DNA of 47,438 bases, from positions 1-47,438 of the IMG/VR virus record IMGVR_UViG_3300020165_000031, one strand, 5' to 3'. The first letter of the stretch is position 1. Every line of letters starts with the position of its first letter. Below, piece by piece: positions 1,582 through 43,480 of this stretch. Both the position numbers and the translations under genes were made by a program. The notes under the pieces were generated by a model, which saw only the letters and a list, made by a program, of their open reading frames with translations, was not told the DNA's origin and searched no databases. Origin of the DNA: a virus.

Positions 1582-1970
1582 ATTTAGAAGCATTATTTAA
1601 CGCAGTTATTGTTAAACCCTTAGAAGTAGAGGAAGAAACATATGGATCAATTGTAGTACCAGATATTGGTAAAGATAAAAACGAACATGGTACTGTAGTA
1701 GCAGTAGGCCCAGGTTCAAATACACATATGGGTCATTTTATCCCAAATGTAATTGAAGTTGGGGATATAGTTGTTCTTCCAACTCAAGGTTTTACTAAAT
1801 TAGAACATGAAGGAGAAGAATATTACATTGGACCCGAAAATCAAGTTTTAGCTAGAGTAAAAAAAGAAGTTAATGTTGAAGAAGTATTAGCTGAAACAGA
1901 ACCATTAGATGAAAACCATTTAATTAGTGAAGAAGAATTTAATCAATTAGAAAATAAAGACAATGAGTAA
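1578..1970 (+). CDS. groES: Co-chaperonin GroES (cpn10), with acidic C-terminal extension
   Basis: This is the lid of the GroEL folding chamber. The N-terminus NAVIVKPLEVEEETYGSIVVPD and the core GTVVAVGPG, GDIVVLP and EEYYIGPENQVLARV follow the cpn10 fold, including a mobile loop around residues 17-33. The protein has 130 residues against roughly 97 for bacterial GroES. The extra 35 or so residues at the C-terminus are strongly acidic and polar. T4 uses gp31 as a GroES substitute; this gene is instead clearly GroES-like and is paired with its own GroEL, overlapping it by 8 bp. Confidence 0.93.
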   Translation: MNLEALFNAVIVKPLEVEEETYGSIVVPDIGKDKNEHGTVVAVGPGSNTHMGHFIPNVIEVGDIVVLPTQGFTKLEHEGEEYYIGPENQVLARVKKEVNVEEVLAETEPLDENHLISEEEFNQLENKDNE

Positions 1971-7950: not shown

Positions 7951-9381
7951 ATGAAGGAAGGTTATATTAAAAGAGAAGAAAGAAAAAAAATTCTTCTTCT
8001 AACAGATGATATTAGAGTTCACTCTGGGGTTGCTCAAATTGGAAGAGAAATAGTAATGCATACTGCCCATAGATACAATTGGGTTCAATTAGCAGGAGCT
8101 ATTAAACATCCTGATACTGGGAACCTCCAAGATTTAAGTGATGATACTAATAAAAAAATGGATCTAGAAGATTCTAATGTTTTGTTATATCCTTGTGATG
8201 GTTATGGGGATGAAAAATTAGTTCGTCTAGTTATAGAAAAAGAAAAACCAGATGCAATCCTTTTAATAACAGATCCACGTTATTTTGAGTGGTTATTTCA
8301 AATAGAAGATGAAATTAGAACTAAAATTCCTATAACATATTTAAATATTTGGGATGATTTACCAGCACCTATGTATAATCAAGATTTTTATGATTCATGT
8401 GATGGTTTATTTGGAATTTCTAAACAAACAAAAAATATCAATGAAATGGTATTAGGGAGTAAAGTTGAAGGGAAAACAATTAAATATATTCCTCACGGAT
8501 TAAATAATAAAAAGTTTAAGATTTTAAAAAGTAATGATGAGGAATTACTAAATTTTAAAAAAGAATTAAATGGAGAAAATAAAATAAAATTTTCACTTTT
8601 ATTTAATTCTAGAAATATTAGAAGAAAATGTATTCCTGATACAATATTAGCTTGGAAATTATTTCTAGATACTTTACCAAAAAAAGAAAGAAACCAATGT
8701 CAATTAGTTTTACATACTAATCCTATAGATCAACATGGAACTGATCTACCATCAGTAATTAGATTTTTATTCCCAGATGATGATCATAACATTGTAATGT
8801 CAACTAATAAACTTTCGATTGAACAAATGAATTGTTTATACAATAATGCTGATGGAGTAATATTATTATCCTCTGCTGAAGGTTGGGGATTATCTTTAAC
8901 AGAAGCTATGTTAACTGGTACTCCTTTTATAGCTAATGTAACTGGAGGAATGCAAGATCAAATGAGATTTGTAGATAAAAATGGAGATTGGTATACACCA
9001 ACACCTGATATTCCTTCTAACCATAGAGGAACTTATAAAGAGTGTGGAGAATGGGCTTTACCTGTATTCCCTTCAAACTTATCATTAGTAGGTTCTCCTA
9101 AAACACCTTATATCTATGATGATAGGTGTAGTGCTGAAGACGCAGCATTAAAAATAAAAGAATTATACAGTATGAGTAAAAAAGAGAGAGAAGATAGAGG
9201 AAAAAAGGGTATGGAATGGGCTTTAGGAGATGAGGCTGGATTTACTTCTGAACACCAAGCAACTAGATTTATAGATGCTATAGAAGAAACAATAAGTAAT
9301 TTTGTACCTAAAAAAGGTTTTTCTTTTACTAGTGATAGTAACAAGTCAAACAAAGTTTTAAACCATAAATTAATATATTAA
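7951..9381 (+). CDS. GT4-family glycosyltransferase 1
   Basis: A GT-B fold retaining glycosyltransferase with 476 residues. The N-terminal domain has the open glycine-containing loop typical of GT4 acceptor domains (DDIRVHSGVAQIGREIV). The C-terminal domain carries the nucleotide-sugar site SAEGWGLSLTEAMLTGTPFIA near residues 307-327, the E-x7-E signature, followed by a glycine-rich loop. Donor and acceptor cannot be deduced. It opens the glycan island and is followed one base later by another GT4 gene, suggesting consecutive transfer steps. Confidence 0.88.
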   Translation: MKEGYIKREERKKILLLTDDIRVHSGVAQIGREIVMHTAHRYNWVQLAGAIKHPDTGNLQDLSDDTNKKMDLEDSNVLLYPCDGYGDEKLVRLVIEKEKPDAILLITDPRYFEWLFQIEDEIRTKIPITYLNIWDDLPAPMYNQDFYDSCDGLFGISKQTKNINEMVLGSKVEGKTIKYIPHGLNNKKFKILKSNDEELLNFKKELNGENKIKFSLLFNSRNIRRKCIPDTILAWKLFLDTLPKKERNQCQLVLHTNPIDQHGTDLPSVIRFLFPDDDHNIVMSTNKLSIEQMNCLYNNADGVILLSSAEGWGLSLTEAMLTGTPFIANVTGGMQDQMRFVDKNGDWYTPTPDIPSNHRGTYKECGEWALPVFPSNLSLVGSPKTPYIYDDRCSAEDAALKIKELYSMSKKEREDRGKKGMEWALGDEAGFTSEHQATRFIDAIEETISNFVPKKGFSFTSDSNKSNKVLNHKLIY

Positions 9382-9382
9382 T

Positions 9383-10672
9383 ATGAAAAATACATTTGTT
9401 ATAAGTTGTCCAATTGATACTTACAGTGGATATGGTGCACGAAGTAGGGATTTTGTAAAAGCCTTAATAGATCTAGATAAATATGATATTCAAATTTTAC
9501 CTCAAAGGTGGGGTAAAACTGCTGAAGGTTTTATTGATAATAATAAAGAATGGGAATTTTTAAATGATCACATAATCCCACAATTAATGGCAAAACCTGA
9601 CTATTGGTGTCAAATTACAGTTCCTAATGAATTTCAAGCTATAGGACAATATAATATTGGTTTAACAGCCGGAATGGAAACAACTATTGTAGATGGAAGT
9701 TGGATTGAAGGTTGTAATAGAATGGATTTAATTCTTACATCATCTAATCATTCTAAAAAAACATTTCAAAATAGTCAATTTTATAAAGATGGAAATGAAG
9801 AAAATCTTATTAAATTAGAAAAACCTATTGAAGTTTTATTTGAAGGTTTAAATTTAGATGTTTATAAAAAAACAAAAACATTTACAAATTCCGATTTATA
9901 TAATGAAATTAATTCTATAAAAGAAAATTTTGCTTATTTAACTGTAGGCCATTGGATGCAAGGTGAATTAGGTGAGGATAGAAAAAATATAGGTTTAACA
10001 ATTAAAGCATTTTATGAATTATTTAAAAATAGAACAAACACACCAGCTTTAATTCTAAAAACTTGTATAGTAAATGGAAGTATTATGGATAGGTCAGAAA
10101 TACTTAGAAGAATTAATATAATTAAAGAAGGTATCCAAAATGCTAAAACTCTTCCAAAAATATATGTACTTCATGGTAATTTTACAGACCCTGAAATAAA
10201 TGAATTATATAATCATCCTAAAGTAAAAGCAATGATTAGTTTAACAAAAGGAGAAGGTTTTGGGAGACCATTATTAGAATTTAGTGCTATTGATAAACCT
10301 ATTATAGCTTCAAATTGGTCAGGACATTTAGATTTCTTAGAAGAAGAACATACAGCATTAGTAGGAGGTAAATTAGACAAAATTCACCAATCAGCAATTG
10401 TTCAAAATATGATTATACCTGAAGCTGAATGGTTTAGACCTGAATTACAAGATATAGGGTATTCTTTTAATATTATTTGGGAAGAATATAAAGAATTTAT
10501 AAAAAAAGCAAAAAAACAAGGATCGCATTCAAGAAATAATTTTTCATTTAATAAAATGAAAGATAAAATAGAAGAAATTTTTAATAATAATTTAATAGAT
10601 TTACCTAAAAAACTAGATTTAAAAATTGCTAATATTGAAATGCCTAAAAAACCAACACTAAAAAAAGTATAA
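9383..10672 (+). CDS. GT4-family glycosyltransferase 2
   Basis: A second GT-B enzyme (429 residues), only distantly like its neighbour. SCPIDTYSGYGARSRDFVKAL near the N-terminus is the glycine loop, and LTKGEGFGRPLLEFSAIDKP around 287-306 is the donor-binding E-x7-E region. A lysine-rich C-terminal tail extends beyond the fold. The gene is adjacent to GT4 number 1 and before a zinc-ribbon protein. Confidence 0.87.
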   Translation: MKNTFVISCPIDTYSGYGARSRDFVKALIDLDKYDIQILPQRWGKTAEGFIDNNKEWEFLNDHIIPQLMAKPDYWCQITVPNEFQAIGQYNIGLTAGMETTIVDGSWIEGCNRMDLILTSSNHSKKTFQNSQFYKDGNEENLIKLEKPIEVLFEGLNLDVYKKTKTFTNSDLYNEINSIKENFAYLTVGHWMQGELGEDRKNIGLTIKAFYELFKNRTNTPALILKTCIVNGSIMDRSEILRRINIIKEGIQNAKTLPKIYVLHGNFTDPEINELYNHPKVKAMISLTKGEGFGRPLLEFSAIDKPIIASNWSGHLDFLEEEHTALVGGKLDKIHQSAIVQNMIIPEAEWFRPELQDIGYSFNIIWEEYKEFIKKAKKQGSHSRNNFSFNKMKDKIEEIFNNNLIDLPKKLDLKIANIEMPKKPTLKKV

Positions 10673-10673
10673 A

Positions 10674-11171
10674 ATGGTAGAAACTGATAAATTAATAAAA
10701 TGTAATAGATGTGGGGGAGATGCTTGTTATAAGCAAGAAATAAATGGTATAGAATTATATTCTTGTTACGGTTGTGGGTTTCAAACTTCATCTATAATGA
10801 AAAAAGGAGAAAAGTTTTTTGAAGAACAAATGGAAATTCTTCCTGAGTTATATAAAGCTTTACTTGGAGAAGATGAAGAGGGAATGATTTGGATGCCTCA
10901 AACAGTAAATCTACCACAACAAGGGATGGTTTTTGCCTCTGTAGCTAAAGATCATGCTGTTGTAAATGAAACCCCCTCTCAAGATAATTATGAATGGGCT
11001 GCTGTAAAGGCTATTCCAATACCTGAAGAAGATAAAGAAAAATATCCTATACCTAATAAAGAAGGAGAATTTTATGAATGGAGAATGGATATGACTACTG
11101 AAAAAAGATTTGCTCACAATGATTTTGTAGAAGCTTTAGATTATATTGGGATATTTGGTAAAGAAGAGTAA
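10674..11171 (+). CDS. Zinc-ribbon protein in glycan island
   Basis: A 165-residue protein with an N-terminal C4 zinc ribbon: CNRCGG and CYGCGFQ, followed by an acidic domain of unknown fold. It lies between GT4 and GT9 genes with 1 and 3 bp gaps. It may have nothing to do with sugars; similar small ribbons are frequent in T4-like phages. Confidence 0.7.
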   Translation: MVETDKLIKCNRCGGDACYKQEINGIELYSCYGCGFQTSSIMKKGEKFFEEQMEILPELYKALLGEDEEGMIWMPQTVNLPQQGMVFASVAKDHAVVNETPSQDNYEWAAVKAIPIPEEDKEKYPIPNKEGEFYEWRMDMTTEKRFAHNDFVEALDYIGIFGKEE

Positions 11172-11174
11172 GTA

Positions 11175-12104
11175 ATGAAAAAAATAGCTGCCTATATTGA
11201 TATGCCAGCATTAGGGGATACACTAGCTGCTATTCCTACAATAAACAAGCTTTACCAAGCACATGATACACCTATAACTGTATTTACTTATCATCCACTT
11301 TTATTTAAAGACCACCCTTCAGTTTTAGAAGCATTATATGTTCACCAATCAGATCATAACCTATATGATTATTTTTATACAACACCATTTAAGGAAAAGA
11401 TTAAAATTAATGGTAAAGATGTAGAATTTAAACATTCCCAAATTGATATAAGACAATTTCATGCTTTATCTTTAGGTTTTTCATTAACCCCAAAAGAAAT
11501 GGAGATTGACCTTTATATAAAAGAAGATTGGGATATAGGATTTAAAGATTATGTTATAATCCATCCAACTTATACTTGGGATTCTAGAACATGGGATACA
11601 AAGAAATATCAAAAATTAATAGATAAACTAAATAATAAAGGGATACCAGTAGTAGCTATTGGTAAAAATAGCTCAGAAACTGGTTTTCATAATATATCTA
11701 AACCAGTAATGGATATTAAAATCCAATATGGAATAAATCTATTAAACCATCCTGAGGGAAGTTTACCTAAAATAAGAAGTTTAATAGATAAAGCTAAATG
11801 TTTAGTAGTTATGGACTCAGGGATATTACATTTAGGAGGTACTACAGATGTAGAAATTATTCAATTAGGATCATCAATTGATCCTTATTTTAGAGCACCT
11901 TATAGGAAAGGAAGTCAAAAATATAAGTATACCTTTATTGGAGGTGGTTGTGATTTATTTTGTACTTCAAATATGAAACACCATTTAAAAGAATGGGACA
12001 CAATTCAAGGTGTACCTCCTTTAGTAGGATGTTTGGAAAATAAACCCTCATTTGAATGTCATCCTGATGTAGATAAAGTATTTAATAAAATTTTAACATT
12101 ATGA
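11175..12104 (+). CDS. GT9-like (heptosyltransferase family) glycosyltransferase
   Basis: This looks like a member of the ADP-heptose:LPS heptosyltransferase family (GT-B). Seen features: the N-terminal DMPALGDTLAAIPTINKL (9-26), the second-domain start YVIIHPTYTWDSRTW, followed by KGIPVVAIGKN, and MDSGILHLGG near 213-222 followed by IIQLGSS, corresponding to the GT9 donor site. Family members use ADP-heptose; whether this one does is not provable, but heptose kinase and nucleotidyltransferase-like genes occur at 15.1 and 44.3 kb. It overlaps the next gene by 4 bp. Confidence 0.8.
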   Translation: MKKIAAYIDMPALGDTLAAIPTINKLYQAHDTPITVFTYHPLLFKDHPSVLEALYVHQSDHNLYDYFYTTPFKEKIKINGKDVEFKHSQIDIRQFHALSLGFSLTPKEMEIDLYIKEDWDIGFKDYVIIHPTYTWDSRTWDTKKYQKLIDKLNNKGIPVVAIGKNSSETGFHNISKPVMDIKIQYGINLLNHPEGSLPKIRSLIDKAKCLVVMDSGILHLGGTTDVEIIQLGSSIDPYFRAPYRKGSQKYKYTFIGGGCDLFCTSNMKHHLKEWDTIQGVPPLVGCLENKPSFECHPDVDKVFNKILTL

Positions 12105-12946
12105 AAATATTAGTAACAGGTGGGGTAGGGTTTATAGGAACTGCTCTTATAAAAAAATTATTAGATGAAAAACATATTGTTCATTCTTTAGATAATTATA
12201 AAATTGGGTGTAAAGAAAATGAAATTGAAGGTTGTTATTACCATAATGTAGATATAGAAAATATTCACCTAATGGATAAAGATTTTGATTTAATTTTTCA
12301 TTTAGCAGCTTTATCTAGAATTCAACCTTCTTTTAATAAGCCTGAAGATACATTTAGAGTTAATACTATTGGAACTCAGAAAGTATGTGAATTTGCTAGA
12401 TATATTGGAGCTAAAGTTGTATATTCTGGTTCATCTTCAAAATGGCATAATCCATATCAATCACCTTACGCTGCATGTAAACATATGGGTGAAGAATCTT
12501 GTAAAATGTATAAAAAAACATATGGGATGGATATTGAAATAGCTAGATTCTATAATGTTTATGGTCCCGGTGAAATAATAGAAGGAGATTGGGCAGCTGT
12601 TATAGGAAAATGGAGACGTCAAGTTAAAAATAATGAATTAATAACAATAGTAGGAGACGGAGAGCAAAGAAGAGATTTTACTTATATAAAAGATATAGTA
12701 GATGGCTTGTGGAGAATTGGGATGAAAAATGAAAAACATATAGATGCATGGGAATTAGGTAATGGTGAAAATTATTCCATAAATGAAGTATATCAAATGT
12801 TTTATGAAAAGTTTAACATAGAATGTAAACACATCCCAGAACAAAAAGGAAATTATAGAAAAACATTAAGAGAAAATGATGATGCTCTTAAAAGATTAGG
12901 TTGGCTCCCAACAGGTAATTTATTATATTATATCCAAAGTTTATAA
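12101..12946 (+). CDS. NAD-dependent sugar epimerase/dehydratase (extended SDR) 1
   Basis: An extended short-chain dehydrogenase acting on a nucleotide sugar. Seen: NAD-binding TGGVGFIG (6-13), LIFHLAALSRI with the conserved HLAA, the active-site Tyr123 and Lys127 in YAACK, and the C-terminal GDGEQRRDFTYIKDIVDGL typical of UDP-glucose 4-epimerase relatives. The product is 281 residues, slightly short of the usual 310-340. Substrate unknown. Confidence 0.85.
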   Translation: MKILVTGGVGFIGTALIKKLLDEKHIVHSLDNYKIGCKENEIEGCYYHNVDIENIHLMDKDFDLIFHLAALSRIQPSFNKPEDTFRVNTIGTQKVCEFARYIGAKVVYSGSSSKWHNPYQSPYAACKHMGEESCKMYKKTYGMDIEIARFYNVYGPGEIIEGDWAAVIGKWRRQVKNNELITIVGDGEQRRDFTYIKDIVDGLWRIGMKNEKHIDAWELGNGENYSINEVYQMFYEKFNIECKHIPEQKGNYRKTLRENDDALKRLGWLPTGNLLYYIQSL

Positions 12947-12947
12947 T

Positions 12948-13571
12948 ATGAAAATAAGTTATGCAATTACAGTCTGTGATGAGTTTGTAGAAATTCAAAG
13001 ATTAATTCCATTTTTATTAGAAAACAAAAAATATGGGGATGAAATCGTAGTTTTATATGATTCAAAAAATGGAGACGAAAAGGTTGAAGAATTTTTAAGA
13101 GCAAAATCAATTAATGGTGAGTTTAGTTGGCATAAAGATAAATTTAATAACCATTTTGCAGATTGGAAAAATAAACTTACTGAAAAGTGTGATGGAGATT
13201 GGATATTCCAAATTGATGCAGATGAAATACCTCATATAGATTTAATTACATATCTTCCTGAAATTATTTTAAGTAATCCTAAAAATGAAGTTATAAAAGT
13301 TCCAAGAATTAATACTGTTCATGGTTTAACTGAAGAATATGAAAGAAAATGGGGGTGGAGAGTAAATGAAAAAGGTTGGGTCAATTGGCCTGATTTTCAA
13401 TGGAGAATTTGGAAGAACCATCCTAAAATAAAGTGGGTAAATAAAGTTCATGAAGTATTAGATGGTTATAGTACTTATGCTGATTTGAATCAAGAAGAAC
13501 GTTTCTCTCTATATCACCCTAAAGATATAGAAAAACAAGTTAAACAAAATAATTATTATGAAAGTATATAG
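12948..13571 (+). CDS. GT2-family glycosyltransferase (GT-A)
   Basis: A 207-residue GT-A enzyme. The N-terminus ISYAITVCDE is a GT2 nucleotide-binding strand, and QIDADEIP near 88-94 contains the metal-binding DxD. A WDFQWRIWKNHP-type stretch (DFQWRIWKNHPKIKWVNKVHE) near the C-terminus is typical of the family that includes SunS/TPR-less glycosyltransferases. It overlaps the start of the next gene by 14 bp. Confidence 0.8.
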   Translation: MKISYAITVCDEFVEIQRLIPFLLENKKYGDEIVVLYDSKNGDEKVEEFLRAKSINGEFSWHKDKFNNHFADWKNKLTEKCDGDWIFQIDADEIPHIDLITYLPEIILSNPKNEVIKVPRINTVHGLTEEYERKWGWRVNEKGWVNWPDFQWRIWKNHPKIKWVNKVHEVLDGYSTYADLNQEERFSLYHPKDIEKQVKQNNYYESI

Positions 13572-14484
13572 TAATTACTTACCCATTGAAAGGTATGAAA
13601 AATTTATTTTAAGTAAAGATAAATTTAAAGATCTTCCTATAACTATCTTTAATGACTATTTTACTAAAGATAATTGGAAAGAGTTAGGAGAAAATCCAAT
13701 AAATATTCTTATTTTGAATGAACCAGACCAATTATTTGGGCACCACACTCAAGTTCAAAAATTCAATAATAATTATAGTTTAATTTTAACTTGGGGTCAA
13801 AATGTAATAGATAATTGCGATAACGCAAGATTATTTATTCATGGTGAAACTAATTTAGACTGGGAATATATAAATTCATTCTATAAAAATAAAGAAAGAA
13901 AATTTGAAGTAACTTTTTTAAGTGGTGTGTTAAAATTAATTGAGGGGCATAAATTAAGACAAAAAATATTATCTATAGAAAATGAAATAAATCTTCCTAC
14001 AAGGTTTTGGAAGGTATTAAGTGATTTTAATTATGAAACAGGAAATAGACCGGGTTATAGAGACCCAGGTTGTGAAGTTATAACTACAAAAGGAACACCT
14101 ATTGAAGGAGAGGGAAAAAAAGAAGTTTGGAATAGAAATTCAATGTTTCACATAGCTGTAGAAAATTCAAGAAATTTAAATTATTATACAGATAAAATAG
14201 TAGATTGCTTTGCTACTAAAACTATTCCTATATATTGGGGTGCACCTAATATAGGAGATTACTTTAATAAAGATGGAATAATTACATTTGAAAATGAAGA
14301 AGATCTAATAGATATTTTAAATAATTTAACAGAAAAAGATTATAAAAATAAGTTGGAAGCTGTAGAAGAAAATTATATATTAGCACTTAATAATGGTTTC
14401 TTTTTTGAAAGGTTAGAACGATTTTTAGACTCAATTATAGAACTTAATAATATAACCAATAGGGGAATTAGCTCAGATGGCTAG
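13558..14484 (+). CDS. GT10-like (fucosyltransferase) glycosyltransferase
   Basis: The C-terminal half shows the alpha-1,3-fucosyltransferase signature: FHIAVENSRNLNYYTDKIVD, then IPIYWGAPNIGDYF and IITF. In the GT10 family this is the GDP-fucose site. A GDP-fucose-synthase-like gene at 17.9 kb would fit as donor supply. The N-terminal half (about 130 residues) is not typical and may bind a distinct acceptor. The reading frame ends with a TAG at 14482-14484 inside the following tRNA-Ala gene, overlapping it by 23 nt, so tRNA processing would remove the end of this mRNA. Confidence 0.75.
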   Translation: MKVYSNYLPIERYEKFILSKDKFKDLPITIFNDYFTKDNWKELGENPINILILNEPDQLFGHHTQVQKFNNNYSLILTWGQNVIDNCDNARLFIHGETNLDWEYINSFYKNKERKFEVTFLSGVLKLIEGHKLRQKILSIENEINLPTRFWKVLSDFNYETGNRPGYRDPGCEVITTKGTPIEGEGKKEVWNRNSMFHIAVENSRNLNYYTDKIVDCFATKTIPIYWGAPNIGDYFNKDGIITFENEEDLIDILNNLTEKDYKNKLEAVEENYILALNNGFFFERLERFLDSIIELNNITNRGISSDG

Positions 14485-14535
14485 AGCGCTTCGCTTGCAC
14501 CGAAGAGGTCATCGGTTCGACTCCGATATTCTCCA
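14462..14535 (+). tRNA. tRNA-Ala (anticodon TGC)
   Basis: A full cloverleaf of 74 nt can be drawn. Acceptor strands GGGGAAT and ATTCTCC pair with one G-T; the D arm contains AGCTCAGATGGCTAGAGC; the anticodon arm CTTCG-CTTGCAC-CGAAG gives TGC; the T arm has ATCGG-TTCGACT-CCGAT. CCA is not encoded. It lies inside a protein-coding operon, overlapping the end of the GT10-like gene. Confidence 0.95.
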
Positions 14536-14549
14536 CAAAATATTAAATA

Positions 14550-14690
14550 ATGAAAAATAATCAAAATAATGGTAACCCTCATACTAATGAAACCCGAAAT
14601 GAGCTTAATAGTAAAATTAGTAAATTAGCAATGTTGGGTCAATCTAAAAAAGTAAAATGGTCCGATAAAAGACGTTTTAGAAACATATAA
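14550..14690 (+). CDS. Small basic ORF after tRNA-Ala (46 aa)
   Basis: A 46-codon frame from ATG 14550 to TAA 14690. The peptide is rich in Asn, Lys and Arg and ends in a basic stretch (KKVKWSDKRRFRNI). It fits exactly between the tRNA and the next ATG at 14692. No family is recognised. Fit to gene spacing and AT-type codons support it. Confidence 0.5.
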   Translation: MKNNQNNGNPHTNETRNELNSKISKLAMLGQSKKVKWSDKRRFRNI

Positions 14691-14691
14691 T

Positions 14692-15090
14692 ATGAATAGA
14701 AAATATTTACCAACACTATCAGAATTAATAGATCGATTATCTATTGTTCAATTAAAAGAAGTTTTCATTACTGAGCATAAAGAAGAATATGCTAAAGAAA
14801 TAGCAGAAATAACTCATGATATAGGGGAAATAATTAATAATGAAAAAATTACACTAACAGGAGAAGATGTTAGAGCAATTGTAGTTCTTTCTCAAATGAA
14901 TCTTCATATATGGCATAATGAAACTAAATATAGAGCAGGAACAGGAGATGGTAATTTAGGACTAACACATGGATTAAATGGGATAAGAAATACTGCAAAA
15001 AATAAAATACAAGAAAACGAAGGAGGAAGAAAAGATTATAAAGTTGATTGTATAGCAGCTGAATTTAAAGACTGGGAAATATCATGGTAA
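14692..15090 (+). CDS. DUF6165-related protein (paralogue of 34895 gene)
   Basis: A 132-residue soluble protein. Its ELIDRLSIVQLK (11-22) and N-LH-IW-HN-E-TKY-R (70-81) line up with GELLDKLTILELK and N-AK-LW-EI-E-DEI-R of the DUF6165 protein at 34895, at nearly equal spacing. Both lie beside sugar genes. The function of the family is unknown. The end overlaps the kinase gene by 7 bp. Confidence 0.65.
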   Translation: MNRKYLPTLSELIDRLSIVQLKEVFITEHKEEYAKEIAEITHDIGEIINNEKITLTGEDVRAIVVLSQMNLHIWHNETKYRAGTGDGNLGLTHGLNGIRNTAKNKIQENEGGRKDYKVDCIAAEFKDWEISW

Positions 15091-15836
15091 AAATATTAGT
15101 AATAGGAGATAGTTGTGTAGATGAATACATTTATTGTACAACGAATAGATTCTGCCCAGACGCACCTGTACCCATTCTAAAACCTGAATCATATGTTTCA
15201 ACTGAAGGTATGGCTGGTAACGTAGCTGATAATTTAAGAGCATTAGGAGCTGATGTAGATTTAATTTCAAATGCTAATCAAATTAAAAAAACAAGGTATG
15301 TTGATGAAAGAACAAACCATATGTTTATTAGGATTGATGAAGGTGAAGATGATATATTTCCTATAGCTAAAAAAACGCTAGAAAATATTGAATGGAATAA
15401 ATATGATGCTGTTGTTATAAGTGATTATTGCAAAGGATTTCTTACAGAAGATGAAATAGCTTACATTTCTCATCAACATATAAATACTTTTTTAGATACT
15501 AAAAAATTATTGAATTCTTGGGCTGAAAATATAGGATTTATAAAAATTAATGATGTAGAATATAACTACAATTTAGATAACCATTCAATAAATCTAATTG
15601 AAAAAATGATTATTACTAGAGGATCTAGTGGGGCTGAATATAATGGAATAATGTATCCCGTAGATAAAGTTGATGTTAGAGATACTAGCGGAGCTGGTGA
15701 TACATTTTTAGCTGGTTTAGTATACGCTTATATAAATGGAAATAACATAGCAGATGCCATTAAATTTGCAAACAAATGTGCAACACAGATAGTTCAGAAA
15801 AAAGGAACAGCAAAAATTAATAATAGAGAATTATGA
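15084..15836 (+). CDS. PfkB-type sugar kinase (HldE N-terminal/HldA-like)
   Basis: A ribokinase-fold kinase of 250 residues. The N-terminal GDSCVDEYIYCTTNRFCPDA (8-27) followed by PVPILKPE and GMAGNVADNLRALGA closely follow the D-glycero-beta-D-manno-heptose-7-phosphate kinase domain of HldE (E. coli has R-x-S-PEAPVPV and GGAANVA). The ATP/anion-hole motif DTSGAGDTF occurs near 201-209. It is shorter than the HldE kinase domain (about 310 residues), with a compact middle. In the family the product is heptose-1,7-bisphosphate, on the way to ADP-heptose. A matching C-terminal HldE-type nucleotidyltransferase is encoded at 44286. Confidence 0.8.
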   Translation: MVKILVIGDSCVDEYIYCTTNRFCPDAPVPILKPESYVSTEGMAGNVADNLRALGADVDLISNANQIKKTRYVDERTNHMFIRIDEGEDDIFPIAKKTLENIEWNKYDAVVISDYCKGFLTEDEIAYISHQHINTFLDTKKLLNSWAENIGFIKINDVEYNYNLDNHSINLIEKMIITRGSSGAEYNGIMYPVDKVDVRDTSGAGDTFLAGLVYAYINGNNIADAIKFANKCATQIVQKKGTAKINNREL

Positions 15837-16363
15837 AATACGAATATAGTAAAAAATTAGGATTAGCAATTATCCAACCAGATATATTTTATGATTATAG
15901 AGGTGAATATGTCGAAACATGGAATATTGAAAATTATAAGGTTTTTAATCCTAAAGGATCAGGGAATGAAATAATTTTTAAACAAGATGATATTAGTACA
16001 TCTACTAAACATACATTAAGGGGTTTACATGGTGATAATAAAACATGGAAACTAGTATCATGTATTTATGGTTCTCTATTACAAGTAGTTGTTGATATGA
16101 ATTATGATAGTGCAACATATTTGGAATGGGAGTTATTTACGATAAATGATAAAAATAGACAACAAATATTAGTTCCACCAGGATATGCTAATGGTCACTT
16201 AGTAATGAGTGATTTTGGGATATTTAGTTACAAACAGTCAACATTATATGGAGGAGCCAAAGAACAATTTACAGTCAAATGGAATGATCCAAAAATAAAT
16301 ATTCCTTGGCCTATTGATAACCCTATATTATCTTCACGTGATAAAAATGTAAAACTACTATGA
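15833..16363 (+). CDS. RmlC-like dTDP-4-keto-sugar 3,5-epimerase
   Basis: A cupin-fold epimerase. Seen: DYRGEYVETW (21-30), the hallmark TLRGLH with catalytic His66, VVVDMNYDS, and VPPGYANGH (114-122), followed by Y133 and TLYGGAKE. Length 176 matches RmlC (about 180). In the family the reaction is double epimerisation of a 4-keto-6-deoxy-sugar. No RmlA or RmlB homologue is seen in the window, so it would depend on host or other phage genes for its substrate. Start and stop overlap neighbours by 4 bp. Confidence 0.83.
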   Translation: MKYEYSKKLGLAIIQPDIFYDYRGEYVETWNIENYKVFNPKGSGNEIIFKQDDISTSTKHTLRGLHGDNKTWKLVSCIYGSLLQVVVDMNYDSATYLEWELFTINDKNRQQILVPPGYANGHLVMSDFGIFSYKQSTLYGGAKEQFTVKWNDPKINIPWPIDNPILSSRDKNVKLL

Positions 16364-17301
16364 AAGAAAACGTATTAATAACAGGAGGAGCTGGTTATTT
16401 AGGATCAGTATTAGCTGAAGTTTTATTAGATGAAGGTTATATTGTAACTGTATTTGATAATTTAATGTATAAACAAACATCGTTATTACATTTATGTGAT
16501 AATAAAAATTTTAATTTTATTAAAGGGGATGTTACTAATAAAAAGGAATTTTTACCACAAATTGTTAATCATGACATAATTATCCCTTTAGCTGCTATAG
16601 TAGGAGCCCCAGCATGTGACGCAAATAAAGAACTAGCAACAGCTATTAATTATGAGCAAATTCAATATATAGTAGATAAGCTAAGACCATCTCAAAAACT
16701 ATTAATGCCTAACACAAACAGTCAATATGGAAGTTCAGATAGTATAATTACTGAAGAATCCCCATTTAATCCTTTATCACATTATGCTATTACTAAATGT
16801 AAAGCAGAAGAGTATATAATGGAGTGGGGTAATGGTATTTGTTTAAGATTAGCTACAGTATTTGGATCATCTCCTAGAATGCGTACTGATTTATTGGTAA
16901 ATGATTTTGTCTATAAAACAATGACTGAAGGTTGTTTAGTTTTATTTCAATCACATTTTAAACGAAATTATATACACGTAAGAGATATAGCATATACTTT
17001 TTTACATTGCATTAAAAATTATGATGCATTAAATGGTGAAGTATTTAATGTAGGATTATCAGATGCTAATTTAAATAAAAGGGAATTAGCAGAAACTATT
17101 AAGAATTATTTTCCAAGTTTAGTAATTATTGAAAATGAATTTTCAACTGACAAAGATAATAGAAACTATATAGTATCTAATGATAAATTAGAAAACACAG
17201 GATGGAAACCACAATATACTATTGAAGATGGTATTGATGAGTTACTATCAGCATATAAAATGATTATTACAGATAATAATAAAAAATATACAAATTTATG
17301 A
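16360..17301 (+). CDS. NAD-dependent sugar epimerase/dehydratase (extended SDR) 2
   Basis: A 313-residue extended SDR. TGGAGYLGSVLAE (8-20) binds NAD; IPLAAIVGAPACD replaces the common HLAA; the YAITK motif near 142-146 gives the catalytic Tyr and Lys; RNYIHVRDIAYTF matches the substrate-binding region. It resembles the UDP-glucose 4-epimerase/dehydratase group. It overlaps RmlC and the methyltransferase genes by 4 bp, so all three are coupled. Confidence 0.84.
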   Translation: MKENVLITGGAGYLGSVLAEVLLDEGYIVTVFDNLMYKQTSLLHLCDNKNFNFIKGDVTNKKEFLPQIVNHDIIIPLAAIVGAPACDANKELATAINYEQIQYIVDKLRPSQKLLMPNTNSQYGSSDSIITEESPFNPLSHYAITKCKAEEYIMEWGNGICLRLATVFGSSPRMRTDLLVNDFVYKTMTEGCLVLFQSHFKRNYIHVRDIAYTFLHCIKNYDALNGEVFNVGLSDANLNKRELAETIKNYFPSLVIIENEFSTDKDNRNYIVSNDKLENTGWKPQYTIEDGIDELLSAYKMIITDNNKKYTNL

Positions 17302-17945
17302 TAACATTAGATACAAACTATCCTATAGCATATGACTCCCCTGATCATATTTGTCCTTGGGGTACAAAAAGAGATAATTTTACAAGTAAAGGATTTATAG
17401 ATGAAACATTAAATTTTCATTCCCAAAAAGGAAAAGATAAAATAAATTTTTTAGATTTGGGGTGCTCAGGTGGTCAACTTGTAATAGATTATATTAATAG
17501 GGGACATTTAGGTGTAGGATTAGAGGGAAGTGATTATAGTGTAATAAATGGAAGAGCTAATTGGCCTAAATATTATAATAAAAATTTATTTACTTGTGAT
17601 GTTACAAAAAAGTATGAATTATTTGAAAATGATATAAAATTAAATTTTGATATTATTACAGCTTGGGAAGTTATAGAACACATTAAACCTGAAGATCAAA
17701 AACCATTTTTTAAATACATTAATGATAATTTAAATAGTGGAGGATTTTTTTGTGGTTCTATTTCTACTAGAGAAGAAGTTATAAAGGGTCACTCTTTACA
17801 TCAAACTGTTTGGAATGAAGCTACTTGGTATAAAAATTTCCCAGATATTCTAAAAGAAACTAATTTAGAATTATATCAATATCCTTTTAACAATAAAGTT
17901 AGGGATTTAAATGATTCTTTTTATATTTTATTACTAAAAAATTAA
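17298..17945 (+). CDS. Class I SAM-dependent methyltransferase
   Basis: A 215-residue methyltransferase. Motif I is FLDLGCSGGQLVIDY near 51-65, motif II GVGLEGSD, and the post-motif region DIITAWEVIEHI followed by LNSGGFFCGSIS. It has the layout of methyltransferase family 11/23 enzymes and lies between two sugar SDR genes, suggesting sugar or glycan O-methylation. Confidence 0.8.
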   Translation: MITLDTNYPIAYDSPDHICPWGTKRDNFTSKGFIDETLNFHSQKGKDKINFLDLGCSGGQLVIDYINRGHLGVGLEGSDYSVINGRANWPKYYNKNLFTCDVTKKYELFENDIKLNFDIITAWEVIEHIKPEDQKPFFKYINDNLNSGGFFCGSISTREEVIKGHSLHQTVWNEATWYKNFPDILKETNLELYQYPFNNKVRDLNDSFYILLLKN

Positions 17946-17947
17946 AA

Positions 17948-18835
17948 ATGAAAATACTAGTAACAGGATCTACAGGATTTGTAGGTAAACATTTAATTAA
18001 GGCATTAGAAAAAGAAGACCACGAAATACTTAGTTTTAATTCTTCTAATTTTACAAAGATGTGGTATTGTCAAAGAGATACCATTGATGTAATAATTCAT
18101 TTAGCTGTTAAAACAGCAGCAGGTGGATATTGTCAAAACCACCCAGGTGAACAGTGGATAGTAAATAATAGTATTAATTCTGATATGTTAGCTTATTGGG
18201 CACAATATCAACAAAGAGCTACTATGATTACCTTTGGATCTTCTTGTGGTTATAATAATGATGTTATTAAAACCGAAGATAACTATTTAGTAGGTGAACC
18301 TGAAAAAGGTTATGAAGTATATGGAATGATAAAACGTAATTTATTAGTAGGATTAAAAGCATTATCAAAAGAATTTCAAATGGACTCTAACTACATGATA
18401 CCATCAGTGTTTTATGGACCTAATTATGATTTAAAAGATAAACATTTTATATTTGATTTAATTCGAAAAATAGTTAATGCTAAAAATGGAGGTGAAGAAG
18501 TTGTTCTTTGGGGAGATGGCACACAGGAAAGAGAATTAATTTACATTGACGATGCTATTAATATTATTATGGCTTGTATGAATAATCCTGAAGCCCCAAA
18601 AATGTTTAATCTATCTTCTGGGAGTACTTACACACTTAAAGAATATGCACAAACTATTTGTGATATAATAGATTATGATTTTGATTTAATTAAATGGGAT
18701 ACAAATGCTTTTGTAGGTTCTCCTAGTAAAAAATTAATTAATACCCATTTAAAAGGATTCAATTTCACTCCCCTTAAACTTGGCTTAGAAAAAACAATAG
18801 AATATTATGAAAATAGCATCAGTAGTAGTAAATAG
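17948..18835 (+). CDS. fcl: GDP-L-fucose synthase-like SDR
   Basis: Extended SDR of 295 residues. TGSTGFVG at 6-13 binds NAD(P); HLAVKTAAGG, the Ser-containing FGSSCGYNND, and Y-GMIKR (Tyr and Lys about 125 and 129) follow the GMER/Fcl pattern, as do SVFYGPNYDLKDKHFI and REXIYIDDA (RELIYIDDA). GDP-L-fucose synthase makes GDP-fucose from GDP-4-keto-6-deoxymannose. Shorter than E. coli Fcl (321). The GT10-like enzyme upstream would be the natural consumer. GMD, which makes the substrate, is not seen here. Confidence 0.75.
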   Translation: MKILVTGSTGFVGKHLIKALEKEDHEILSFNSSNFTKMWYCQRDTIDVIIHLAVKTAAGGYCQNHPGEQWIVNNSINSDMLAYWAQYQQRATMITFGSSCGYNNDVIKTEDNYLVGEPEKGYEVYGMIKRNLLVGLKALSKEFQMDSNYMIPSVFYGPNYDLKDKHFIFDLIRKIVNAKNGGEEVVLWGDGTQERELIYIDDAINIIMACMNNPEAPKMFNLSSGSTYTLKEYAQTICDIIDYDFDLIKWDTNAFVGSPSKKLINTHLKGFNFTPLKLGLEKTIEYYENSISSSK

Positions 18836-19679
18836 AAATGACGGTTATAAAGATTTAGAAAGAGGAATACTTCATTTTAAATTTATGAGTGAAACTTTTG
18901 ATGAAGTTAATTATGTAGATTGGAATTCATCAAATGGTTCTTTTTTATGGGAGATTGAAAATAAAATTCCATCTAAAGGCAAAATAAAACATTTTTGTAT
19001 CCCTTCTAATATAGTTAACCAAATTATTATGGATCCTAATGCTCAAAAATGTAATGAAGCTTTAAGTAGAAATATTGCTATTAAAAGAAGTGATGCTGAT
19101 TGGATTATTTCTACTAATATTGATATTATCCCTCCTACAAGAAAAGAATTAAAATCTTTAATTAAAACTTTAGATAAAAATACTTTTTATACCATTTCTA
19201 GAAGAGAAGCTCCTAAAGATATAGTATATAATACTAAAATAACTAAATTAAGAGAATCCCTTTCAACAATTCCAGCTAGACATTTTCCTGCAAAAGTATC
19301 ACCTAATGATGATTATAGTTTAATAAATTGTTGTGGAGATTTTCAAATAGCACATAGAGATGTTTGGAATAAAATTAAAGGATTTGAAGAAGAAATGATT
19401 TATGCCTGTTATGTAGATACTAATATTCAGAAAAAAGCAGTATTAAATGATTATAAATTAGAAGTATTATATGAACCTGCATTATATCACATGGAACATG
19501 GAGCTTATTATACCAAAGAAGATGGTACAAGAATGTTAGATAACAATAATGAAGGCCCTTACAAAGGGGATAACAAAGCTTATAATGATCCTTGGAAATG
19601 GGTTGAAACTTTCTCAAAAACTAATAATACAAAAGAGTGGGGATTAGGAAATGTTGATATAGAAGTAGAGGTAATTTAA
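18807..19679 (+). CDS. GT-A glycosyltransferase (galactosyltransferase-like)
   Basis: A 290-residue GT-A enzyme. SVVVNRNDG opens the fold; EALSRNIAIKRSDADWIISTNIDIIPP gives the donor-site region with NID in place of a classical DxD; and CCGDFQIAHRDVWNKIKGF followed by ACYVDTNIQKKA resembles the galactosyltransferase C-terminal domain. The first 29 bp overlap the end of the SDR gene. It closes the glycan island. Confidence 0.77.
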   Translation: MKIASVVVNRNDGYKDLERGILHFKFMSETFDEVNYVDWNSSNGSFLWEIENKIPSKGKIKHFCIPSNIVNQIIMDPNAQKCNEALSRNIAIKRSDADWIISTNIDIIPPTRKELKSLIKTLDKNTFYTISRREAPKDIVYNTKITKLRESLSTIPARHFPAKVSPNDDYSLINCCGDFQIAHRDVWNKIKGFEEEMIYACYVDTNIQKKAVLNDYKLEVLYEPALYHMEHGAYYTKEDGTRMLDNNNEGPYKGDNKAYNDPWKWVETFSKTNNTKEWGLGNVDIEVEVI

Positions 19680-23231: not shown

Positions 23232-23253
23232 AATTTACACAAAGATTTATGCG

Positions 23254-26183: not shown

Positions 26184-26882
26184 ATGGCAACAAGAGCACT
26201 TATAGGATTTATTGATGATGATAGACAATTTGTCTCTACTTATAATCATTATGATGGATATCCTGAATATTTAGGTAAAGCACTAGATAAATATTTTAAT
26301 GACAGAGAAGCAGCTGAAAGAGTTGCTAGCACAGGTTATATTTCTTCAATAGATATAGAAGATGGTTCAATAGAATCAAAATATAATGAAGAACCAGATT
26401 ACAAAGTACTTGACGGTGATCCTTATGAAGCAGGTATTGCAATAGGAGAAAAAGTAGATGAGTACGGAGGTGATTATGGATATGTTTGGTTTGATGGTAA
26501 GTGGCACTCAGTCAAAAATGCTGGAATAGCTAACATGGCTAAAGCATTAGAAGATAAATTAGATGATGGTGGTAAAACTTTTATGTCAATAGATGAAAAT
26601 AAAGAAGAAGATATTATGAAAGAAGGTTATGAAGCAAAATGGGCACAATTTCTATCAGAAGGTAAAAAAGTAGATTTTGATGTCATAGAAAAATATATAG
26701 AAAAAGAAACAACAGGAGAAGATCTTCAAGGTAAGCAGTTTGTAAACTTTGGTTTAGATGCTTATATGGATTCTCTTAAAAGAGACTTTGCTCAAGGCAG
26801 AGGTGATGACTACATAGATTATGAAATGGACGATTATGTTGAAGATTTCGAAAATTATGTAGCAGATAAAATGGATTCTTAA
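26184..26882 (+). CDS. Conserved phage protein (ATRALIGF/YNHYDGYPE family)
   Basis: A 232-residue acidic protein. The N-terminal ATRALIGFIDDDRQFVSTYN followed by HYDGYPEYLGKAL is a pattern I recall in many marine T4-like phage genomes; no function is assigned. The C-terminal half is rich in Asp and Glu. The downstream 153 bp are noncoding and highly structured. Confidence 0.72.
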   Translation: MATRALIGFIDDDRQFVSTYNHYDGYPEYLGKALDKYFNDREAAERVASTGYISSIDIEDGSIESKYNEEPDYKVLDGDPYEAGIAIGEKVDEYGGDYGYVWFDGKWHSVKNAGIANMAKALEDKLDDGGKTFMSIDENKEEDIMKEGYEAKWAQFLSEGKKVDFDVIEKYIEKETTGEDLQGKQFVNFGLDAYMDSLKRDFAQGRGDDYIDYEMDDYVEDFENYVADKMDS

Positions 26883-27035
26883 ACAACCTGTTATCTTAGG
26901 TTGGATCCAATGGTCAAATTTATTATCGTTCCCGTTCGACATTTGAAAAATGTATTGTCGGCTACGATAAGTTATCCAAAGTAGTTGGCCACTACGTTTT
27001 CAAATTAAATTAAATTATTAACCAAAATCAAAAAA
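26883..27035 (+). promoter_or_regulatory. Structured noncoding leader before outer-membrane gene
   Basis: No reading frame fits. The 153 bp carry the perfect palindrome TTGGATCCAA (26901-26910), a long-range pair TTATCGT (26923-26929) with ACGATAA (26964-26970) enclosing CGACA (26937-26941) with TGTCG (26956-26960), and a hairpin GTAGT-TGGCC-ACTAC (26981-26995) followed by GTTTT. GC content is higher than around it. It may be a structured 5' leader, a terminator for the upstream operon, or a small RNA. The usual phage promoter motif is absent. Confidence 0.5.
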
Positions 27036-27458
27036 ATGAAAAAAATGATTTTAACTCTAGCTTTAGGACTGCTAATTGCAGTTGGAGCTAACGCACAAGG
27101 AGTGCAAAATGCAAAAGGTGATTGGTACGTTGGTACTGGTGACATTGCAAATGTATCATGGACTGAATGGTCTTTAAGTCCTACAGTAGGATATGCTATA
27201 ACAGATGACCTTATGTTAGGTGCAAACATCTCTCAAGCAGATTCTTCTGAGGATGTAAGTTTAGATCTACATGCAAGATATTTCTACAAAGGATATTTTG
27301 CTTATGTAGCTACAGACGGACTAGACACAGATGGTATGAAACTTGGGGTAGGTAGAATGTTTTCTATCCATAAAGGAGTATTCCTTGATCCAAAAGTTGT
27401 ATATGATACATCAGCTAAAACTACTAACTTACAGTTAGGGTTTGGGTTGAAGTTTTAA
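27036..27458 (+). CDS. Small outer-membrane beta-barrel protein
   Basis: A 140-residue protein with a Sec signal (KKMILTLALGLLIAVGANAQ; cleavage probably after ANA at residue 20). The mature part alternates hydrophobic and polar residues in about eight strands (WSLSPTVGYAI, DLMLGANISQ, SLDLHARYFY, GYFAYVATDG and so on) and ends in the aromatic LGFGLKF, the usual BAM insertion signal. It resembles 8-strand outer-membrane proteins common in Bacteroidetes. In a phage it may be a moron altering the host surface. Its leader is unusual (structured, no standard promoter), which suggests separate regulation. Confidence 0.75.
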   Translation: MKKMILTLALGLLIAVGANAQGVQNAKGDWYVGTGDIANVSWTEWSLSPTVGYAITDDLMLGANISQADSSEDVSLDLHARYFYKGYFAYVATDGLDTDGMKLGVGRMFSIHKGVFLDPKVVYDTSAKTTNLQLGFGLKF

Positions 27459-27484
27459 TATTGTTTAACTTAAATTAAATTAAA

Positions 27485-27712
27485 ATGGAAAATGTAATTA
27501 AATATGTAACTGGATTCTTTGGTGGGTTGTTATCAATTATGATGGCAGTTGTACCTGTAGCAATCCTTTGGAATGTGTTAACAGGACAAACTATATTCGG
27601 TATGGATGTAGTTGCAAATCTAACAGCTCTAGTAGCTAGCTTCGGTGAAGGTGGGTTTGTAGGTCTAGTAGCACTAGTAATTTTAGCTAAATTCTTTATT
27701 GATAAGAAGTAA
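27485..27712 (+). CDS. Small two-helix membrane protein
   Basis: A 75-residue protein with two hydrophobic helices (about 10-33 and 46-70) separated by a short loop, and a KK C-terminus. The arrangement fits a class II holin-like or envelope protein, but there is no lysis gene next to it. It lies 26 bp downstream of the outer-membrane barrel gene and just before a strong terminator, so the two form a unit. Confidence 0.65.
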   Translation: MENVIKYVTGFFGGLLSIMMAVVPVAILWNVLTGQTIFGMDVVANLTALVASFGEGGFVGLVALVILAKFFIDKK

Positions 27713-27740
27713 GTTAAGGTTGAATTATCATGATAGAAAG

Positions 27741-27767
27741 AAAGGCGCCTTAATCGGCGCCTTTTTT
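27741..27767 (+). terminator. Strong intrinsic terminator
   Basis: GGCGCC (27744-27749), loop TTAATC, GGCGCC (27756-27761), then TTTTTT (27762-27767), with three A upstream pairing with T. It is the clearest Rho-independent terminator in the window and closes the barrel/membrane-protein unit. Confidence 0.93.
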
Positions 27768-27775
27768 ATTTTAAG

Positions 27776-27807
27776 TGTGGATAATTTAATAATATTTCGT
27801 ATATTGG
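27776..27807 (+). promoter_or_regulatory. Promoter P6 (degenerate)
   Basis: TGTGG (27776-27780) and TTCGTATATTGG (27796-27807), with the invariant 20-nt offset, directly after the terminator and before the ATG at 27830. Confidence 0.6.
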
Positions 27808-27829: not shown

Positions 27830-28180
27830 ATGATTGTTAAAGACTTATTAATTGGTGTAGCTATGTTTTTTATAGCTCATGTTCTAACATTTTTTCAATT
27901 GAATGGTCAATTTTTAAAAATGGATTGGTTTAGAAAAAATGAAATCCTAGTAGCAGCAGCAGGAATTATTTTATCGTTTTTTTATATTTGGGGGACTAAA
28001 TATACTGTTAGTGGGTTTGGTGGTATGCTTTGGCCTGCTAGATTTATAGGATTTGGTGTTGGTATGATTATTTATGCTATTGGAGTTAGTTATTATTTTA
28101 ATGAAGGGGTAACTCCAAAAACAGCAGTAAGTTTATGTTTAGCCTTACTTTTAATTTGCATTCAAGTACTTTGGAAATAA
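27830..28180 (+). CDS. Four-helix membrane protein
   Basis: A 116-residue protein with four hydrophobic helices (about 5-24, 38-56, 66-88 and 95-114). No family is recognised; small four-helix membrane proteins resemble DUF486/EamA-like units. The C-terminal end overlaps the next gene's assigned start by 46 bp. Confidence 0.62.
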   Translation: MIVKDLLIGVAMFFIAHVLTFFQLNGQFLKMDWFRKNEILVAAAGIILSFFYIWGTKYTVSGFGGMLWPARFIGFGVGMIIYAIGVSYYFNEGVTPKTAVSLCLALLLICIQVLWK

Positions 28181-42814: not shown

Positions 42815-43273
42815 GCTTACGACGGTAGAGATATAATATTAAGTGGTGTCGACAGCCATAGTAAGTACTCCCGCGGTGACATAACCTACCGTGGTGGGTA
42901 CCTTACTATATAGTACAACATAAGTAATATAACATAATGACTGACTGGATATAATATAATAACTATAATAGGTCGTGCGGCGTACGGCGTACGTACCGCA
43001 TAATTACCCACGGCATGCCGCCGTCAATATGGCGTGTATATATGGTAAAGAGGGTGTAGCTGGCTTTATAGATCGTATATAACTCTAACCCATCGATTGT
43101 ATATACAAATATATTATATGCAAGTCCATATAGGATAACGGGATTCAAAATTCATATATGCGCAAACATATAATAAAAAAAATTTTTACCATCGATAAAA
43201 TATATACTTATATAAATTGCTTAATAATTTGGTCATATAAAATTGGTGGTTATTTGAAGAATTATTCGTATCT
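42815..43273 (+). other. Long noncoding region with palindromes
   Basis: No convincing gene. It begins right after the stop with the palindrome GTAAGCTTAC (42811-42820). A GC-rich part holds a hairpin of GCGG (42977-42980) and CCGC (42996-42999) around repeated GTAC, and the exact palindrome CGGCATGCCG (43011-43020). An AT-rich part follows with the 12-bp palindrome TTGTATATACAA (43097-43108) and long runs of A and T. Candidates are a replication origin, a regulatory RNA or an operator cluster. Confidence 0.55.
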
Positions 43274-43363
43274 ATGACCATGGAAAAAGAAAACAAAGAA
43301 CCAGCAGTAGCACTATTATATTTTACTATAATGGTAGTTGTATATGGTTTAGCACAACTTTAA
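43274..43363 (+). CDS. Tiny membrane peptide ORF (29 aa)
   Basis: ATG 43274 to TAA 43363, 29 codons; a second in-frame ATG is at 43280. A charged start (MEKENKEPA) is followed by one hydrophobic helix (VALLYFTIMVVVYGLAQL). A degenerate promoter-like GGTGG/TTCGTATCTA pair with 20-nt offset (43245, 43265) ends at the ATG. Very small, so support is limited. Confidence 0.4.
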   Translation: MTMEKENKEPAVALLYFTIMVVVYGLAQL

Positions 43364-43390
43364 AATCTTTTGAAGGCTTCCGGTAAAGTA

Positions 43391-43424
43391 CTTGGAGTAG
43401 CGAGGAAGAGTTCGTATATTTACG
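43391..43424 (+). promoter_or_regulatory. Promoter P14
   Basis: CTTGG (43391-43395) and TTCGTATATTTACG (43411-43424), 20-nt offset. The leader GGGGTAAATGAGGC followed by ACGAAGCC repeats the P8 type. Confidence 0.78.
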
Positions 43425-43480
43425 GGGTAAATGAGGCACGAAGCCAATAGAACACAAGTTAAATTAAATTAATAAGAGTT

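Follow-up and report, generated by a model that had tools for sequence, protein, structure and literature searches.

The stretch of DNA analysed here (the window) is a linear virus record of 47,438 bp, which is a fragment, and the locus that concerns us carries two open reading frames, called at 27036-27458 and 27485-27712. The sequence-only reading that preceded this work had treated 27036-27712 as a single barrel unit; there are two genes in it, and the first alone encodes the barrel. Upstream lie a promoter (26901-26931) and a predicted 5' untranslated leader RNA of about 100 nt (26936-27035, from the inferred start to the ATG), and an intrinsic terminator (27738-27767) follows the second gene. 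All of these features are on the + strand. The best reading of the region is that of a putative independently transcribed cassette, made of a promoter, a hairpin leader, two membrane genes of host families and a terminator. The GC content of the barrel gene is 36.6% and that of the small-protein gene 35.1%, for a window mean of 29.3%; they rank 5 and 8 among the 74 window ORFs, and both fall within the range of the host barrels (33-38%).

The 140-aa product of 27036-27458 is taken as an outer-membrane beta-barrel on the grounds of its signal peptide, its C-terminal Phe, Pfam and a structural model. The signal peptide (approximately residues 1-20) ends in ...ANA, directly ahead of QG, amphipathic strands are predicted to form a barrel, and the C-terminal residue is aromatic, as in outer-membrane barrels; this F is invariant among the relatives. 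In Pfam, the window protein matches OMP_b-brl (PF13505) weakly, with an E value of 0.002 that is below the curated cut-off, while 23 of 46 relatives match the same family at E<=0.01 (best 4.6e-6). The only families matched among these relatives are OMP_b-brl, Phenol_MetA_deg, DUF5777 and Porin_O_P. The AlphaFold model consists of a signal helix and 7-8 strands, with a moderate pLDDT of 71.8 and residues 20-45 unresolved. When used in Foldseek, it retrieved porins, OmpA, OmpX and Ail as well as phage proteins labelled 'outer membrane beta-barrel', with modest scores throughout: E values of 0.03-0.08 for OmpA, OmpX and Ail and, in the viral library, of 1.7e-4 for the best match and about 1e-3 to 1e-2 for the others. 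In a profile search, the C-terminal region is weakly matched to OmpX/Ail structures (E 0.46). Membership of the Ail/Lom family was rejected, since neither the window barrel nor its relatives have an Ail/Lom match in Pfam.

The second gene (27485-27712) encodes a hydrophobic protein of 75 aa, probably with two transmembrane helices and presumably located in the inner membrane. Its relatives are encoded in at least 96 viral stretches, and in most of the barrel loci close to the window the barrel and small-protein genes are adjacent. Chromosomal homologues were found in 53 of 196 Flavobacteriales genomes, at loci other than that of the host barrel. These host homologues often come as tandem pairs of diverged copies (L452:1501-2049, L453, L455-L457), with a terminator behind the first gene in most of the cases examined and no name in Pfam or NCBIfam. 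PHROGs holds a family for neither the barrel nor the 75-aa protein, a protein search of 50,697 annotated phage records gave no match to either, and a literature search found no paper on them.

The promoter belongs to a class that is widespread in the window. The motif CGTATATT is found there in 15 copies, all on the + strand, where 1.4 are expected, and these copies form the -7 part of a larger element, (T)TTGG-N19-TATATTTA, mostly placed 13-67 nt before the next ORF. There are 17 window copies of this phage promoter on the + strand (1253, 3887, 20610, 23283, 25119, 27799, 29378, 38093, 38545, 39394, 39622, 41873, 42251, 43414, 45531, 46232 and 46931), several of which have an extended similarity, TTTGGAGAAGCGAGGAAGGGTTCGTATATTTACGGGGTAAATGAGG. 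The Flavobacterium promoter consensus is TTTG/TAHHTTTG, at -33 and -7 with about 19-20 nt between the two, and its -7 element spans -12 to -5 (PMC6847099). The phage class resembles this consensus and the host primary-sigma promoter, which makes an early transcription of the unit plausible.

A weight matrix was built from the 17 other window copies, leaving out that of the barrel, and the 260 bp upstream of the barrel were scanned with it. The best site is TTGG-N19-TATCGTTC at 26901-26931 (p=0.002), with the -33 element TTGG at 26901-26904, a 19-nt spacer and the -7 element TATCGTTC at 26924-26931. The earlier statement that the region has no standard promoter thus finds no support, as this site looks like a weakened and diverged member of the promoter class that the phage uses elsewhere. 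Compared with the Bacteroidota consensus, its spacing is kept and its -7 element is a poor match, with 4 of 6 key bases. The unit therefore appears to have a promoter, which is weak in the window. Several relatives have a matrix p of 4e-5 to below 2e-5 at this site; the corresponding position ranks first in L002, L003, L007, L024, L025, L036, L049 and L075, as does the equivalent place in loci of other clades (L144, L147, L250, L276, L153, L039 and L304, with p of 2e-5 or lower), and it comes only second in L005, L053 and L196. The promoters of L049, L144 and L250 score far above that of the window. Following the consensus, transcription is predicted to start at about 26936.

The 153-bp region before the barrel had been described as having nested inverted repeats. 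Several inverted repeats are indeed seen, and the fold of the region beats its shuffles (z -2.65); the nesting comes down mainly to a single extended hairpin located 3' of the predicted start. This 5'-terminal hairpin (26941-27005) is drawn from folding, a covariance model and a strand-swap test. It would comprise helix I (26941-26949/26997-27005), helix II (26951-26954/26993-26996) and helix III (26957-26965/26981-26989), closed by the apical loop GATAAGTTATCCAAA (26966-26980). It is followed by an A-rich start region, ATTATTAACCAAAATCAAAAAA (27006-27035), which has no Shine-Dalgarno (SD) motif and is nearly invariant in the alignment of close relatives.

From the predicted start, the window leader folds with a z of -3.15 relative to dinucleotide shuffles. 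In all the group A and F leaders tested, a single long 5'-terminal hairpin forms from the predicted start, with z between -1.3 and -7.7: the F-clade leaders reach -5.9 to -7.7, L024, L036 and L075 reach -3.6 to -4.9, and the folds of L002, L003, L007, L049 and L196 are weaker (-1.3 to -2.7). Whether relatives keep the leader structure had been set out as one of the points on which the sequence-only reading could fail, and a covariance search as one way of checking it; both were carried out, and the structure is kept. The covariance model, built from 16 close relatives and without the F clade, matches the window at 26939-27014 with 99 bits and has exactly one match in each of 12 records, the window included. 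It also recovers the leaders of the sister clade F, at 40, 23 and 21 bits, whereas a sequence-only model from the same alignment finds none of them at E<=10. Helix III is kept in the F clade through several two-sided changes. In the strand-swap test, the L196 hairpin has a pairing energy of -7.9 with its own strands and about -1.6 to -3.1 when these are swapped with the window, and that of L144 goes from -12.7 to about -5 and -2.8; both strands have changed in these two hairpins, and yet they are complementary. Within the close group, the alignment-based covariation is not significant because most pairs are invariant or changed on one side only: the hairpin pair counts are no better than in shuffles, and RNAalifold adds little (covariation term -0.08). 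The case for a conserved hairpin thus rests on the F clade and on the divergent members.

The hairpin is single-copy per genome and always precedes the barrel gene. Its exact core pattern occurs in 37 IMG/VR stretches, every one of which is this leader, and a looser DNA pattern brought, beyond the known loci, unrelated matches only. A search of Rfam 15 at E<=10 gave no credible match in the leader and no family above the gathering threshold; its matches in the window are tRNAs only. In barrel clades that are further removed, the leaders are different, and several of these fold strongly (z of about -4.5 to -4.9 in group E); in clade D the barrel gene lies directly behind another gene. An SD-like motif precedes 1 of the 74 window ORFs, and such scarcity is expected for a Bacteroidota host (PMC6847099). 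In the barrel clades C, E, H, M and N, an SD-like GAGGAAA is found before the ATG (as in L108, L120, L140, L258 and loci related to them), unlike in the SD-less clade of the window; in clade C, TATATTTATA also lies upstream of the barrel. The hosts or the translation rules of the SD-bearing clades may differ from those of the window clade.

At the other end of the unit, the terminator AAGAAAGGCGCC-TTAATC-GGCGCCTTTTTT (27738-27767) has 12 pairs, 6 of them G-C, followed by T6. It had been presented as the only classical one; it is the strongest in the window, but there are also weaker ones, such as those at 23253 and 38515. A terminator-like hairpin is found downstream in all but 13 of about 110 distinct barrel loci, mostly right behind the small protein, or behind the barrel if the small protein is not adjacent, and the terminator sequences differ among relatives at the same place. 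The next promoter, TGG-N19-TATATTGG at 27778-27807, serves the following gene (27830-28180), which is outside the unit. Upstream, the gene that precedes the leader varies between close relatives and the leader stays. Differing upstream genes combined with a kept leader and terminator form the pattern of an independent transcription unit. On this point the earlier proposal of independent transcription finds support in the unit's own promoter, the conserved terminator and the differing upstream neighbours, all of which is evidence from sequence.

The barrel relatives are encoded in at least 106 viral stretches, which are marine contigs. The combination of leader, terminator and barrel is represented by 22 distinct close leaders and more than 100 wider relatives; among relatives collected by the gene itself, this spread tends to argue against a sporadic, recently gained insertion. 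The T4 gp23 capsid gene was found in 7 of 24 relative records, namely G001-G006 (158-212 kb) and G018 (101 kb), that is, in 7 of the 8 relatives of 100 kb or more; the 47-kb window fragment, the 130-kb G007 and the shorter contigs gave no gp23 match. Metagenomes have previously yielded T4-like viruses assigned to marine Bacteroidetes (PMC7198788). From this gp23 kinship, the lineage is apparently lytic. As the cassette is present in many diverse contigs, several of them gp23-bearing, it would be a long-standing part of the lineage.

The homology to host outer-membrane proteins that had been anticipated is borne out at the family level. A profile of 46 phage barrels, searched against 296 Flavobacteriales genomes, matches 114 of them, and about 50 of these matches are full-length, with E values as low as 1.9e-35; the genomes are mostly 1-2 Mb in size. 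A profile restricted to subfamily 1, which is that of the window, matches host proteins at E values of about 4e-13 to 4e-6. The chromosomal barrels (about 130-152 aa) resemble those of the phages by this full-length homology and by having their own promoter-like site and terminator. They differ in that their leaders look short, leader model R1 has no match in 196 host genomes under stricter filters, and their nearest phage relatives belong to subfamily 2: in the tree, the hosts group with the latter, and subfamily 1 stands behind a long, fully supported branch. The sequence comparisons thus show host kinship at the family level and do not support a recent transfer into the window's lineage. 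In two large host contigs, the barrel gene adjoins genes that we named, by reading the sequences and not by search, as those of an alanyl-tRNA synthetase and of a larger barrel resembling porins. The host homologues of the two families occupy separate loci in largely the same small-genome Flavobacteriales, and both are found together in 31 genomes where 9 are expected, an excess that shared descent inflates. Since both families are chromosomal at separate host loci, the phage lineage probably joined two host-family envelope genes into a single unit. A short-peptide scan of genome contigs gave one contig, L319 (PKDP01000085.1, 5.6 kb, from a Flavobacteriales MAG bin), which carries a phage-type barrel and phage-like genes and is probably a viral contig within the bin; it supports the host assignment.

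We consider it reasonably probable that the locus is a self-contained cassette of a T4-like flavophage, whose envelope proteins of host families remodel the surface of the infected cell. The expression and function of the leader, hairpin, barrel and small protein are predicted as follows. The host RNA polymerase with its primary sigma factor would read the unit early. The hairpin at the 5' end would shield the mRNA from 5'-dependent decay and hold the start region single-stranded, and we propose that this protection and this open start region would make the message long-lived and well translated, by an SD-less translation. The barrel would be exported and inserted into the outer membrane and the 75-aa protein into the inner membrane, and together they would change the infected cell's envelope or help to preserve it. 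The most likely ways are the masking or replacement of surface proteins, leading to superinfection exclusion, and the upkeep of an intact envelope during the decay of the host mRNAs; these two options seem about equally likely. The organisation of the cassette suggests that the virus may control the bacterial surface independently of its other genes. As a more tentative possibility, T4-like flavophages would have acquired two unlinked families of host envelope genes and brought them under a new, phage-specific structured leader RNA, whose conserved apical loop would be recognised by a factor of the phage or of the host; this two-protein envelope programme would then adjust the infected cell's surface outside the lytic cascade.

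The cassette reading has to be weighed against the idea that the barrel is just one more gene of the surrounding operon, with promoter-like and hairpin features due to chance or being relics. The barrel is on the same strand as all its neighbours, no terminator was found between 26184-26882 and the barrel, and the -7 element is weak; however, the position of the promoter, the hairpin and the terminator are kept at the same place in relatives with a differing upstream gene, and we find this idea very improbable. The sequence-only reading had favoured a moron, which in its classical form would be a recent, dispensable acquisition with host-like signals, whose dormant or pseudolysogenic expression benefits the host; morons are defined as dispensable for the phage life cycle and expressed in the dormant state (PMC7067206). 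The architecture fits, with a promoter and terminator of its own, a GC content above that of the genome, host-family proteins, and a likeness to lambda lom, a gene that the prophage expresses (PMC7067206). The distribution does not fit, as the unit and its terminator are common to many diverse contigs of an apparently lytic T4-like lineage, including several gp23-bearing genomes of 158-212 kb; moreover, no integrase was noticed among the annotated genes in an unsystematic look at the window, itself a fragment, and the sequence gives no sign for or against pseudolysogeny. A moron in the classical sense is therefore quite unlikely in our view.

The leader could also act as an RNA switch or an operator, its apical loop or an alternative pairing allowing a protein, sRNA or ligand to toggle the barrel. 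Indeed, sequences of the promoter region are complementary to the leader (GGAT/ATCC, TTATCGT/ACGATAA and TGGTC/GGCCA), and the arms of this dyad show coupled changes in some relatives: in the alternative structure, 7 cells are altered on both sides, a count reached by 0 of 500 shuffles. The window has three sites with TGG-N19-TATCG, two of which form a mirror-image pair in the leader, at 26902 (+) and 26991 (-), and the conservation of the apical loop exceeds what a spacer needs. Against this, the 5' arms are promoter elements, and a transcript starting at 26936 would lack them; the F clade has no matching downstream arm; in most cases, an RNA that begins at the -33 box has a less significant fold than one that begins at the predicted start; and the leader matches no Rfam family. 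Such a switch seems unlikely. The dyad may be an operator, may be relevant to read-through transcripts, or may reflect chance with shared ancestry. Our first structural reading, made of nested P1/P2/P3 helices and two pseudoknots, lost its place as the main model when the promoter was located, since its 5' arms coincide with the promoter elements; its coupled changes, for which the cassette model does not account, are kept with the switch alternative.

Several known systems can be compared with the proposed cassette. Hairpins at the 5' end stabilise bacterial mRNAs, the ompA leader being an example. The phage hairpin shares with this type its location a few nt from the predicted 5' end and before an unstructured ribosome landing site, and it differs in being longer (about 65 nt), extended and phage-specific, its stabilising role being putative. 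The lambda Lom and Ail-OmpX barrels are likewise small, of the eight-stranded type, phage-encoded, with a signal peptide and their own transcription unit, whereas the homologues of the window barrel are in Flavobacteriales and not enterobacterial, and it is carried by a T4-like virus, where it has a presumed inner-membrane protein as its partner and is preceded by a structured leader. The 'outer membrane protein beta-barrel' proteins of uncultured marine Caudovirales and cyanophages are also small phage barrels and are Foldseek neighbours, but their sequence identity to the window barrel is about 11-21%. Phage-borne outer-membrane proteins are already known; what appears to be new within the databases searched is the combination of the two families, together with the leader RNA.

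Hardly any phages that infect the abundant small-genome marine Flavobacteria have been brought into culture, and little is understood of the way in which they deal with the envelope of their host. The cassette offers a testable handle on this question, through two host protein families, a promoter class with 17 copies in this one window, and a leader hairpin. Being phage-specific, the hairpin could be used as a marker in metatranscriptomes, and the 17-copy promoter could serve to annotate promoters across uncultured T4-like flavophages. Should the cassette serve to exclude rival phages or to keep the envelope alive, this would explain why the lineage retains host-like membrane proteins.

Elsewhere in the window, a cluster of glycosyltransferases, nucleotide-sugar epimerases and related genes (7951-19679) suggests that the phage may also remodel the surface polysaccharide. 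The window further encodes a GroEL (1963-3588, PHROG 5725, E 5.8e-148) and a DNA ligase, and it contains, at 42815-43480, 666 bp without a listed ORF, in which TATA-rich and GC-rich sequences alternate.
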